From contig DATLUM010000138.1 in the NCBI GenBank assembly GCA_035533095.1, forward strand, positions 1 to 64,000: 64,000 bases of DNA. The letters are read 5' to 3'. This document shows positions 40,552-45,843 of this stretch, piece by piece. Numbering within the stretch: the first letter of the stretch is position 1; each line of letters starts with the position of its first letter. A model generated the notes under the pieces. That model was not told the origin of the DNA. It saw only the letters and a program-made list of their open reading frames with translations, and did no database searches. The translations under genes and the position numbers were made by a program. The stretch comes from Acidimicrobiales bacterium (GTDB lineage: Bacteria > Actinomycetota > Acidimicrobiia > Acidimicrobiales > Palsa-688).

Positions 40552-41502
40552 TCACCTCTTGGCGGGTTGAGGGGTCAGCCCGTGCTCGCGGGCGAGCCGC
40601 TGAAGGATCTCCACGACGATCGGTTCGCCGGAACTGCGGGGGATCCGCTCGACGGTGGAGTCACCCTCGTCCACCGCGTCGGGCACCACGATGCAGACGG
40701 GGACCGAGGGGCGCGCTGACCGGTGGGCCTCGAGGAGAGCCGCGCCCTGCTCGCCCGGCACAGCGTCGACCACCAGGTCGGCGCCTTCGAACAGCGGGCA
40801 GGTCTCTCCCCGCAGGGCCGGGCAGCAATCCCAGCCGCCCTGCGGTCCGGGGCAGGTCAGAACCTCGAATCCCGCTTCCCGCACTGCATTCTCAGCGCGC
40901 CAGTGACCCCCCGGGACCTCCACGAGCACCCTCGGCTGCTGGTGAACCGGGGGCCAGCTGGGCATCTTTCCGCGTGTCGCGATCGCAACATGAGCTATCG
41001 CCGGATCGGCGTAGTCGACGTGAACCAGACCACGGTGGCGCAGCACTGACAGCATCTGGTGGTTCGTCACCATCACCTGGGCCTCGAGGTTCGGGATCCC
41101 GCGAGCGGCCGCTTCCTCGGTCAGGGCATCGAGCAGGTACGGCCCCAGCCAGCCCCGGGCATCATGGGCGACGGTGATTCCCAGCTCACCGTTGCCGTTC
41201 GGCAACATCCCGTAACTGGCCTCTCCCACCAGCTGGGGCGCCGCCTCCGGACCTTCGATGACCGCCACCAGCCCGAACCCTCCCCGCTGTTCTATTCGCG
41301 TCATCTGCTCCACGAACGACTTGGGCGGGCCGTGACCCGTGAAGAACCGCAGGTAGCGGTCGTTTTCGCTCAGAGATCTGTAGAGCGAGACGAGACCGGG
41401 TCGGTCGCTGGGCCGGATGGCCCGGATCGTCAGGACCCTGGATAGCGGGAGCTCGACGCTTCGGTGCACCGTTCGCTTGGCCGGATCTTCCGATGAAGGC
41501 AC
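40552..41502 (-). CDS. GNAT acetyltransferase with C-terminal cysteine-rich domain
   Basis: About 316 residues; start uncertain (GTG at 41502, poor ribosome binding). Residues about 25-175 are a GNAT domain: [21 protein letters not shown], then [11 protein letters not shown] and the acetyl-CoA loop [23 protein letters not shown], a degenerate R/Q-x-x-G-x-G/A. Residues about 200-300 look like a receiver-type alpha/beta domain carrying [25 protein letters not shown] with four cysteines, an unusual addition. Relatives lie in the acyl-CoA synthetase-protein lysine acetyltransferase group (inference). It stands just upstream of the synthetase operon on the same strand, so it may acetylate the synthetase. 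Confidence 0.75.
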
Positions 41503-41625
41503 GCCTCGATCATCGGGCTCGGGCCGTCGGTAGAAACAGAGGCGATGGTCACCGCCGACTTCGGGTCGTTCGGCCCTGCACGGGGGTCGACTTCCGTGCG
41601 TACGGTCGGATGGGAGGTGGTTTCG

Positions 41626-42012
41626 GTGACCCAGGTCAAGTCGACAGATTCCGGCGCAACGAGGCCTTCCATCGCCGGTGCATGGCGCAACCAGCTGGGA
41701 TCGTTCCTGACCGTCGAGGTCGACGATGACGGAGTGATCCGAGGGACCTTCCACACCGGTACCGGCTCGACACCCGACAAGACCTACCCGGTCGTGGGCT
41801 TCTGTGATGCCGACCGGATCGGCATGTTCATGGTTCTCGGGTTCGTCGTCAACTGGAGCGACAACCAATCCATCACCGTCTGGTCGGGTCTATACGACGC
41901 AGAAGCGGGCACCATCGACGCGACCTGGCTGATGACGAGTGAGACGGGTTCTGCCGACGAATGGAAGGCGACGATGGTCGGCCACGATGTCTTCCGGCGC
42001 GCCGCCTTCTAG
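41626..42012 (+). CDS. Avidin-family (streptavidin-like) biotin-binding protein
   Basis: 128 residues from the GTG at 41626 with GGAGGTGG five bases upstream; an ATG at 41545 is in frame. Single avidin barrel: SIAGAWRNQLGSFLTV, GVIRGTFHT, GFVVNWSDNQSITVWSG, DATWLMTS, DEWKATMVGHDVFRR. Aligned by eye to streptavidin, biotin contacts are kept: Asn22 (N23), Ser26 (S27), Trp77 (W79), Ser82 (S88), Thr84 (T90), Trp86 (W92), Trp101 (W108), Trp113 (W120), Asp121 (D128). Y43 is Phe42 and S45 is Thr44, and the loop between W79 and W92 is four residues shorter. No signal peptide is visible, unlike streptavidin. An MFS gene starts 18 bases after the stop. Confidence 0.9.
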   Translation: MTQVKSTDSGATRPSIAGAWRNQLGSFLTVEVDDDGVIRGTFHTGTGSTPDKTYPVVGFCDADRIGMFMVLGFVVNWSDNQSITVWSGLYDAEAGTIDATWLMTSETGSADEWKATMVGHDVFRRAAF

Positions 42013-42029: not shown

Positions 42030-43568
42030 GTGACCGCCGTCCTGCCGGCGGATGTCGGGCGCGGCCGGCGGCGCGGGGTCATCCTTGCTGTCCTGTGTGT
42101 CAGTCTCCTGCTGGTCAGCCTGGACAACATGATCCTGAACGTCGCCCTACCGGTGATCGTGCGGGCGATGCACGCCTCCTCGACCCAGCTGCAGTGGTTC
42201 GTCGACGCGTACGTGGTGGTATTCGCGGGGCTGCTGCTGGTGGCAGGCAGCATTGGAGACCGGCTGGGTCGCAAATGGGTCTTCATGGTCGGCCTCACCG
42301 TCTTCGGGGCGGGCTCCGCGGCGTCGGCCTTCTCGGGGACTCCGGACCGCCTCATCGCCGCCCGGGGCCTGATGGGCGTGGGCGGTGCTGCGATCATGCC
42401 GTCCACCCTCTCGATCCTCACGAGCATCTTCAGCGACGATGACGAGCGCGCCCGGGCCATCGGAATCTGGTCGGGGACTTCCGGGATCGGAGTGGCGCTG
42501 GGACCCCTGGCGGGCGGTCTTTTGCTCTCACACTTCTGGTGGGGCTCGGTGTTCCTGGTCAACGTGCCCATCGCGCTCGCCGGCCTGGCGGCCACCGCGC
42601 GGTACATCCCCAACTCCAAGAACCCGGATGCCAAACCTGCCGACCCAGCCGGTGCCGTACTCTCCATCGTCGGCATGGGGCTGCTCCTGTGGGGGATCAT
42701 CGAGGCACCAACCCGTGGTTGGGAATCCCCGGTCACCATCGGCGTGCTCGCCGGGGCTGTGCTGGTACTCGGCATGTTCGTGGGTTGGGAACGGCGTTGC
42801 AGCCACCCCATGTTGGAGCTGGGCTTCTTCCGGTCGCCCAGGTTCTCGGTGGCGATGGGGGCGATGGCATCGGTGATCTTCGCCTTGATGGGCTCGCTGT
42901 TCCTGCTCACGCAGTACTTCCAGTTCTCCCTCGGCTACAGCGCACTCCAGACGGGGGTTCGGGTCGCGCCCGTCGCCGCCGTGCTGCTCGTGGTCGCGCC
43001 GCTGTCCAGCGTGGTGGTACGACTCGTGGGCACCAAGCCGGTGGTGTTCAGCGGGATGGCGCTGGTGGTGGCCGGTCTCGCGATCCTCTCGCGGGTCGGC
43101 GTCAGCTCCACGTACGCCGACTCGCTGCCCGCACTGTTCCTGCTCGGCATCGGGGCCGGCCTGGCCTTCGCGCCGTCCACTGACTCGGTGATGGGATCCC
43201 TCCCGCCGGCGCAATCCGGAATCGGCGCGGCCACGAACAGCACCGCAATCCAGGTTGGCGGTGCTTTGGGGGTCGGCGTGCTCGGCAGCATGCTGAACAC
43301 TCGCTACCAGGGCCGGGTGGCGCCACTCCTGGCGCACAGAGCGATCCCGGCACCCGTCATGCACTACATCACCGGTTCTTTGGGAGGGGCACTCGCGGTT
43401 GCGCAGCAGCTCCCCGGCTCTCTCGGCTCTGCGCTGACGGCCCTGGCACGCGAATCGTTCGTGAGCGGGATGGGCCTGGCGCTCGGGGTCGGCGCCGCGG
43501 TGGTGGCTGTCGCTGCGGTCATCGTGGTGCTGACGTTGCCGAACCGGCCAGTAGCGTCCTCCCCATGA
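42030..43568 (+). CDS. MFS transporter, DHA2 (EmrB/QacA) family
   Basis: 512 residues from the GTG at 42030, about 14 helices. Family signatures: LLLVSLDNMILNVALPVI, then WFVDAYVVVFAGLLLVAGSIGDRLGRK (motif A: GDRLGRKWVF) and ARGLMGVGGAAIMPSTLSIL. Proton-driven exporter of drugs or amphipathic compounds. Separated by 18 bases from the avidin gene and overlapping the quinone oxidoreductase start, so these three are probably an operon. Confidence 0.92.
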   Translation: MTAVLPADVGRGRRRGVILAVLCVSLLLVSLDNMILNVALPVIVRAMHASSTQLQWFVDAYVVVFAGLLLVAGSIGDRLGRKWVFMVGLTVFGAGSAASAFSGTPDRLIAARGLMGVGGAAIMPSTLSILTSIFSDDDERARAIGIWSGTSGIGVALGPLAGGLLLSHFWWGSVFLVNVPIALAGLAATARYIPNSKNPDAKPADPAGAVLSIVGMGLLLWGIIEAPTRGWESPVTIGVLAGAVLVLGMFVGWERRCSHPMLELGFFRSPRFSVAMGAMASVIFALMGSLFLLTQYFQFSLGYSALQTGVRVAPVAAVLLVVAPLSSVVVRLVGTKPVVFSGMALVVAGLAILSRVGVSSTYADSLPALFLLGIGAGLAFAPSTDSVMGSLPPAQSGIGAATNSTAIQVGGALGVGVLGSMLNTRYQGRVAPLLAHRAIPAPVMHYITGSLGGALAVAQQLPGSLGSALTALARESFVSGMGLALGVGAAVVAVAAVIVVLTLPNRPVASSP

Positions 43569-44542
43569 GAGCGGTTGTATGCACCGACTTCACCGGCCCC
43601 GACGCACTCCAGCTGACGGAGATCGACGAGCCCACGGTTGGCCCGGACGACGTCCTGGTCGATGTCAAGGCCTGCGCGATCACATTTCCCGACCTGCTGA
43701 TGACCCGCAACCAGTACCAGTTCAAGACCGACCTGCCCTACGTGGTGGGCAGCGAACTGGCCGGCGTGGTGCGCGAAGTCGGATCGGACGTCGTGGGGAT
43801 AGCGGCGGGGGACAGGGTGCTCGGCTCGTCGATGCTGACCGGGGGGTTGGCAGAGCGGGCGGTCCTGCGCGCCGGCACCATTCACAAGCTGCCGGATAAC
43901 GCCGGCTTCCCCGAGGCCGCCGGGCTGCTGTATGCATACGGAACCTCGCACTACGCGCTGCGTAACCGGGCCGGCCTGCAACCCGGGGAAACCCTTCTGG
44001 TGCTTGGTGCAGCCGGAGCGGTCGGTCTTTCTGCAATAGACATCGGCCACGCGCTCGGAGCCAGAGTCATCGCTGCGGCGTCCAGCGACGAGAAGCTGGA
44101 GCTGTGCCGCAAGCACGGTGCCGACGAGACCATCAATTACGAGACAGAGGACCTGAAGACGACGGTCCGCGAGCTCACACAAGGGCTCGGTGCCGATGTC
44201 GTCTACGACCCGGTCGGGGGCAAGTACGCCGAGCCTGCCCTGCGGTCGACTGCATGGGAGGGCAGGTACCTCGTTATCGGGTTCGCCGCCGGCGACATCC
44301 CGCGCATCCCTCTGAACCTGACGCTGCTGCGAGGGTGCAGCATCGTCGGCGTCTTCTGGGGTTCGTTCGTGGGACGCCAGCCCGAGGACCACCGCCGCAA
44401 CGTCACCGAGCTCATGGACTGGTGGCGCGAGGGTCGCTTCACGCCGTACGTGTCGGCGACCTACCCCCTCGAGCGCGCAGCGGAAGCGTTGCGCGACGTT
44501 GACGGGCGCCGCGTCCTGGGCAAGGTAGTCGTCACGCCTTAG
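43565..44542 (+). CDS. NADPH:quinone oxidoreductase, zeta-crystallin type
   Basis: 325 residues. Medium-chain dehydrogenase without catalytic zinc ligands: N-terminal GroES-like domain with DLLMTRNQYQFKTDLPYVVGSELAGVV and Rossmann motif VLGAAGAVGLSAIDIGHALGARVIAA (about residue 148). KHGADETINYE and VYDPVGGKYAEPALRS match the quinone reductase family, which reduces quinones or enones with NADPH. The ATG overlaps the MFS stop (ATGA). May detoxify an exported compound's derivative (inference). Confidence 0.93.
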   Translation: MRAVVCTDFTGPDALQLTEIDEPTVGPDDVLVDVKACAITFPDLLMTRNQYQFKTDLPYVVGSELAGVVREVGSDVVGIAAGDRVLGSSMLTGGLAERAVLRAGTIHKLPDNAGFPEAAGLLYAYGTSHYALRNRAGLQPGETLLVLGAAGAVGLSAIDIGHALGARVIAAASSDEKLELCRKHGADETINYETEDLKTTVRELTQGLGADVVYDPVGGKYAEPALRSTAWEGRYLVIGFAAGDIPRIPLNLTLLRGCSIVGVFWGSFVGRQPEDHRRNVTELMDWWREGRFTPYVSATYPLERAAEALRDVDGRRVLGKVVVTP

Positions 44543-44583
44543 TCGACCGACCCAGCCGAGTTTCGTTGCCGGGCGGCAGCCCA

Positions 44584-45843
44584 ATGGAAGGGCAAGACCT
44601 GAGCCAGCTACGCCTACACCGTTGGAGCGACCGGGAGATCGTGGCGGTGGCGCTCGCCGCCCTCGCCATCGGCTTCGGGCAGTTCGGGGTGGTGGCCGCC
44701 CTGGGCGATGTGGCGAAGGGCTTCGGCCAGGTCAGCAACGGCGCGACCATCGCCGACCAGGCCGGCCTATCGGGCACGGTGCTCGGCGTGGGGCTGGCGA
44801 TCATCCGTCTCGCCTCCCTGGGCGGGCTCCCTGTCGCCGGGCTCGCCGACCACTTCGGGCGCCGGCGGACCCTCATCGCGACCTTGGTCGCCGGGCTCGT
44901 CGTTACCGCTCTCGCCGCCGCCAGCCCCAGCTACTGGTGGTTCGTCGCGATCTTCGCTGTGGGGCGGCCGCTCCTGAGCGGTGCCGACGCGGTGGCACAG
45001 GTGACCGCGGCGGAGCAGACGGGGCAAGCCGACCGCACCAAGGCCGTGGCGCTGGTCGCCGCCGGGTACGGCGTGGGCGCCGGGATCGCGGCCGTTCTGC
45101 ACAGCATCGGCTTGGGCGCCATCGGGTTCCGTGGTCTGTTCGCGCTCGCGCTGCTGCCGGTGATCGTGCTGGCGCCGCTCCGCCACTGGTTGAGCGAGCC
45201 GGATCGTTTCAATGTCGCTGCCGCGACCGATCGGCCATTGCCTGTGCTGGGCGCGGTGGCGCCCCGCTTCCGGCGCCGGCTTGCCGTGGTGGCGGGGCTG
45301 TCGTTTGCGCTGTCCGTCATCACCGGTCCGGCGAACAGTTTCGTGTTCCTGTACGCGCAGGACATCGTGCACCAGAGCGGCTACGTGACCGCCGCGATGG
45401 TCGTGGGCGCCGGCGCGTCGGGGCTGTTGGGGCTCGTCCTCGGCCAATGGCTCGCTGACCGGATCGGCAGGCGGGTGACGGCGACCATCGGCATGGTCGG
45501 TATCTCTGTGTTCGGCGTGCTCGCCTACACCGGGTCGGGGAGCGCGCTGGCGTTGGGCTACATCATCGGCGTTCTGTTCGGCTCGCTGCTCGCACCGGCT
45601 GCCGGCGCCATGATCAACGAGCTGTTCCCCACCTCGGTTCGGGCGTCGGTGGCCGGGTGGTGGGTCGCGGCGGGAGTCGCAGGTGCGGCCACCGGCCTGA
45701 TCGTGTTCGGTACGGTTGCCGACATCCGTAACCAGTTCACCCTCGCGGCAGCCGTCACGTTCCTGCCGGCCGCGGTCGCCGCGGTGTTGTTCTGGTTGCT
45801 GCCGGAGACGAGAGGGCGTGAGCCAGAGGAGGTCTCGGGATAG
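44584..45843 (+). CDS. MFS transporter
   Basis: 419 residues from the ATG at 44584, about 12 helices. Motif A-like segment ADHFGRRRTLIA (about residue 92) and its counterpart ADRIGRRVTATIG in the second half. NELFPTSVRASVAGWWVAAGV near residue 345 is a sugar/metabolite-transporter-type segment. No cargo can be given. It follows the quinone oxidoreductase after 41 bases on the same strand. Confidence 0.88.
   Translation: MEGQDLSQLRLHRWSDREIVAVALAALAIGFGQFGVVAALGDVAKGFGQVSNGATIADQAGLSGTVLGVGLAIIRLASLGGLPVAGLADHFGRRRTLIATLVAGLVVTALAAASPSYWWFVAIFAVGRPLLSGADAVAQVTAAEQTGQADRTKAVALVAAGYGVGAGIAAVLHSIGLGAIGFRGLFALALLPVIVLAPLRHWLSEPDRFNVAAATDRPLPVLGAVAPRFRRRLAVVAGLSFALSVITGPANSFVFLYAQDIVHQSGYVTAAMVVGAGASGLLGLVLGQWLADRIGRRVTATIGMVGISVFGVLAYTGSGSALALGYIIGVLFGSLLAPAAGAMINELFPTSVRASVAGWWVAAGVAGAATGLIVFGTVADIRNQFTLAAAVTFLPAAVAAVLFWLLPETRGREPEEVSG

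Follow-up and report, generated by a model that had tools for sequence, protein, structure and literature searches.

Avidins are widely engineered proteins, yet the reason that bacteria make them is unsettled. In the biotin pocket of streptavidin the hydroxyl of Tyr43 bonds the ureido oxygen of biotin, and the dimeric avidins of the rhizavidin type carry a loop disulfide and have lost the equivalent of Trp120. Streptavidin is known as a secreted protein; in a survey published in 2021, only about 50% of the putative avidins of bacteria had a predicted signal peptide (PMC8033661). Avidins without a leader are more difficult to explain, as an intracellular femtomolar trap would be expected to deprive the cell that makes it of biotin. 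Acidomycin, too, occupies the biotin pocket of streptavidins and is neutralized by them, and secretion of the complex has been proposed in a text that mentions neither signal peptides nor an intracellular form (PMC13336041). Here, we describe an extra leaderless example with a nearly full pocket except for replacement of Tyr43 by Phe, encoded in an avidin-poor lineage within a 64,000-nucleotide stretch of DNA (the window).

Identity, predicted fold and biotin pocket of the product

The gene and the features at its start are listed below.

41626..42012, + strand: avidin-family (streptavidin-like) protein, 128 aa, GTG start, without signal peptide (Pfam PF01382, phmmer to streptavidin, AlphaFold2 model with structural match, ligand residues)
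41613..41617, + strand: GGAGG Shine-Dalgarno-like motif, 8 nt before GTG 41626 (read from the sequence, motif only)
41545..41625, + strand: in-frame upstream extension from ATG 41545 (codon-position GC, hydropathy)

The open reading frame at 41626-42012, first picked out in a sequence-only reading of this DNA, is coding-like, with codon-position GC of 0.56/0.51/0.80. Candidate starts ahead of the core are ATG 41545 and the GTGs at 41596, 41617 and 41626, the last of which appears to be the best, with GGAGG eight bases upstream. Codon-position GC between 41545 and 41625 is 0.59/0.63/0.78, with a GC2 that departs from that of coding DNA in the window, and this extension is probably untranslated; in any case it holds no signal peptide. 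The avidin gene is single copy in its own genome (3.44 Mb, 96.8% complete).

Comparison of the 128-aa product with the Pfam Avidin profile (PF01382) gave 90 bits against a cut-off of 24 (E 1.8e-25), and phmmer matched streptavidin PDB chains at E about 1e-17, both of which bear out the avidin fold signature that the sequence-only reading had reported. Alignment with streptavidin shows 41% identity. The streptavidin equivalog model NCBIfam NF047623 scored 74.4 bits against a cut-off of 300, and by this measure the protein is a homologue of streptavidin and not streptavidin itself. An AlphaFold2 model built on a 14-sequence alignment (mean pLDDT 78, pTM 0.70) is an eight-stranded barrel, with predicted strands at residues 18-21, 27-32, 37-43, 53-60, 67-74, 82-91, 96-106 and 113-125. 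Foldseek matched the model to both streptavidin and avidin with a probability of 1.0, and superposition on core streptavidin gave Z 15.0 and rmsd 3.0 over 111 residues. The product of the window gene is almost certainly a true member of the avidin family, of streptavidin type.

Nine of the eleven biotin contacts of streptavidin, previously matched by eye, are identical in the alignment (given as streptavidin=window protein): N23=N22, S27=S26, W79=W77, S88=S82, T90=T84, W92=W86, W108=W101, W120=W113 and D128=D121. The two substituted contacts are Y43=F42 and S45=T44. From sequence, the second of these is a conservative change, and chicken avidin too shows Thr at the S45 position (TYITAV). Because Phe replaces Tyr43, the hydroxyl donor to the ureido oxygen, the first substitution loses one hydroxyl and should come at some cost in affinity. 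With this set of contacts the protein can be expected, with good confidence, to bind biotin at nanomolar or tighter affinity.

W113, V118 and H120 of the window protein align with the streptavidin lid W120 and the interface residues V125 and H127, and because this inter-subunit lid and the interface Val and His are kept, the protein probably assembles as a tetramer. The hallmarks of the dimeric, rhizavidin-type avidins are missing: W120 is retained, and Cys60 is the sole cysteine. The W79 and W92 positions are separated by 8 residues, compared to 12 in streptavidin, so that the hairpin is four residues shorter, as had been noticed. It had further been suggested that the short loop may change affinity or oligomer state, and this part did not hold up: chicken avidin (W-KFSESTTV-F) and xenavidin (W-AFSDSITV-W) have the same 8-residue hairpin, and a Xanthomonas plasmid avidin is without the same four residues. 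Since the length is usual in the family, a short hairpin does not by itself predict a changed affinity or oligomer state, and we rejected it as a special feature in favor of ordinary family length variation.

The missing leader

To look for a leader, we averaged Kyte-Doolittle hydropathy over 15-residue segments of the open frame ahead of the core. No hydrophobic leader was found from any start, which agrees with what had been read from two possible starts and extends it to all four candidate starts. The maximum was 0.89, lying mostly before the first start codon, compared to 2.4-2.7 by the same measure in the leaders of homologues secreted by Streptomyces and Amycolatopsis, and no twin-arginine motif was seen on reading the N-terminal region of the window protein. 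Secretion via the Sec or Tat route is highly unlikely on this evidence, and we infer a cytoplasmic location for the avidin, with non-classical release as the alternative.

The contrast that had been drawn with secreted streptavidin is correct in that the leader is absent here, but its novelty was overstated, as roughly half of bacterial avidins are without a signal peptide. The missing leader is mostly ordinary for bacterial avidins, and the window gene adds a further member to a leaderless kind already known. The idea that leader loss is unique to this lineage was rejected, given the leaderless loci in Streptomyces and Cupriavidus (see below) and the published survey (PMC8033661).

Gene neighbourhood and proposed function

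The genes flanking the avidin gene are as follows.

40552..41529, - strand: divergent GNAT acetyltransferase gene, upstream (Pfam Acetyltransf_3; synteny with relatives G020 and G006)
42030..43568, + strand: DHA2-type MFS efflux transporter (Pfam MFS_1; TIGR00711 EmrB-type; LfrA/SmvA-like)
43565..44542, + strand: zinc-type alcohol dehydrogenase / quinone reductase family gene (Pfam ADH_zinc_N, ADH_N)
44566..45843, + strand: second MFS transporter (NCBIfam MFS models)

The avidin stop is followed after 17 nt by the DHA2 MFS gene, which scores 221 bits against TIGR00711, just below the cut-off of 230. The MFS and alcohol dehydrogenase (ADH) genes overlap by 4 nt, and 23 nt separate ADH from the second MFS gene; avidin, MFS, ADH and MFS probably form one operon with avidin first. 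A promoter scan of the intergenic region found none. A block composed of the GNAT gene, an acyl-CoA synthetase gene and a pyruvate-dehydrogenase-type E1 gene is conserved in G020 and G006, and avidin, MFS, ADH and the second MFS are absent beside the GNAT block in both. Therefore, the avidin cassette lies at a variable spot.

Judging from sequence and model, the product is likely an intracellular avidin with no export signal that binds free biotin or a close analogue and acts by sequestration. Such an avidin would stay in the cytoplasm unless lysis freed it and, once folded as an eight-stranded barrel, would probably assemble with three further copies of itself. The nearly canonical pocket would take free biotin or an analogue, such as desthiobiotin or biotin-like antimetabolites, and the most likely mode of action would be to sequester that ligand inside the cell.

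An unlikely but better-placed alternative than those that follow is immunity or self-protection, in which the avidin would soak up biotin-like antimetabolites (acidomycin, stravidin-type) in the cell and the DHA2 pump would expel them. Neutralization of acidomycin by streptavidin (PMC13336041) is in keeping with this, as is absence of the cassette beside the GNAT block in two relatives, which is expected of an acquired trait. That the avidin directly precedes a gene for multidrug-type efflux, probably within one operon, also fits a self-protection role, but it is no proof. Against it, no genes for biosynthesis of a biotin antimetabolite were recognised among the annotated neighbours (the window from about 29 kb on), tblastn showed no such MFS gene adjoining the leaderless Streptomyces avidins, and a cytoplasmic location of the protein is not claimed in the acidomycin paper (PMC13336041).

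The biotin metabolism of the host bears on two further readings. A clear bioA (423 bits, over cut-off) and, beside it, ORFs that read as BioF and BioD lie on genome contig C106 (L034:6233-9275, - strand), and birA is present in the genome. A profile search found no BioY anywhere in the genome, and no bioB above cut-off. Weak bioB-like matches were rejected, as all are under the cut-off and two cover part of the model only; the lone full-length weak match is beside a ThiG-like gene and by reading looks like ThiH. Absence of bioB may be a real loss, and hence biotin auxotrophy, or an assembly gap. That the cytoplasmic avidin and the co-transcribed efflux pump together constitute an antidote module against biotin-like antimetabolites, in a host whose biotin pathway seemingly stops at desthiobiotin, strikes us as improbable. 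Slightly more doubtful again is an intracellular reservoir of biotin or desthiobiotin, by which a host unable to finish biotin synthesis would keep the scarce imported vitamin. The gene complement just described, with bioA, bioF-like, bioD-like and birA but neither bioB nor BioY, is what a reservoir would call for, and 19 of the 32 same-family genomes do have bioB. However, bioB may sit in a gap of an assembly that is 96.8% complete, several other relatives without bioB carry no avidin, and a femtomolar binder would not usefully release its ligand.

Finally, that the avidin is secreted and its leader was missed through a mis-assigned start, an upstream frameshift or an assembly error is very improbable: canonical streptavidins do start about 42 residues before the core, but here the frame is open back to 41497 with no translated part hydrophobic, GTG 41626 follows a good Shine-Dalgarno motif, and about 100 bases separate the avidin gene from the divergent GNAT gene, space for a promoter region only.

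Sequestration of biotin or an analogue by a cytoplasmic avidin is the reading that we prefer, and the window avidin could serve to examine binding of biotin, desthiobiotin or antimetabolites by avidins that have no leader. More speculatively, an avidin that is free of disulfides and suited to the cytoplasm might be of use as a tool.

Relatives and comparison with known avidins

Scanning of genome contigs with an alignment query yielded a homologue set of 18 loci; the same contigs scanned with a single protein gave no match. Leaders are found in eight of these loci (L006-L013). Seven Streptomyces loci (L014-L020) and likewise two from Cupriavidus (L022, L023) are leaderless, with no more than four residues ahead of the GxWxN core, and locus L021 is broken or incomplete. 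A Streptomyces plasmid copy annotated as an avidin family protein has the same short start. Streptomyces humicola carries two leaderless avidin paralogues (L017, L020) in one genome on different contigs. In the Cupriavidus proteins (about 280 aa) the N-terminal half is avidin-like and a second repeat of the GEWCGGDGT type is present; they may represent a tandem or extended avidin. Matches in three viral contigs (L024-L026) were discounted as chance, since an IAGAWRNE stretch is all the avidin sequence that they share, and no avidin was found in the phage records searched.

An evenly drawn sample of 396 genomes from the phylum gave no match apart from the window's own genome, and among 32 same-family genomes only two others (G006 and G027) have avidin-like genes.

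L003:1471-1854, - strand: divergent leaderless avidin-like gene, same-family genome G006
L002:1468-1851, - strand: divergent leaderless avidin-like gene, same-family genome G027

The distribution of avidins is sporadic, and they are rare in this lineage. The window avidin groups in a tree with the G006 and G027 proteins with modest support (90/76). These proteins have no signal peptide and are about 32% identical to the window protein; they keep N23, W79, S88, T90, W92 and W120, whereas W108 and D128 are lost, and they may bind something other than biotin. Because both genes have lost W108 and D128, the local lineage can, as far as sequence indicates, drift from biotin binding.

The tree does not join the window protein to the leaderless Streptomyces avidins (MPIDGEWYNEFGS... 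group, L014-L020), and most of its branches are unsupported. Members of that group, such as WP_266656289.1 on a plasmid of Streptomyces sp. NBC_01562, are likewise without a signal peptide, have a complete streptavidin-like core and are about 37% identical to the window protein, but they keep a C-terminal extension, whereas the window protein is without one and has a short, polar tail at its N-terminus. Chicken avidin and xenavidin are secreted animal proteins of low identity to it. With streptavidin itself (Streptomyces avidinii, PDB 1STP/1MK5), the window protein has in common the avidin barrel, the W120 lid, V125 and H127, and nine of the eleven biotin contacts, and it differs by being without the signal peptide and the C-terminal extension and by a loop after strand 3 that is one residue longer.
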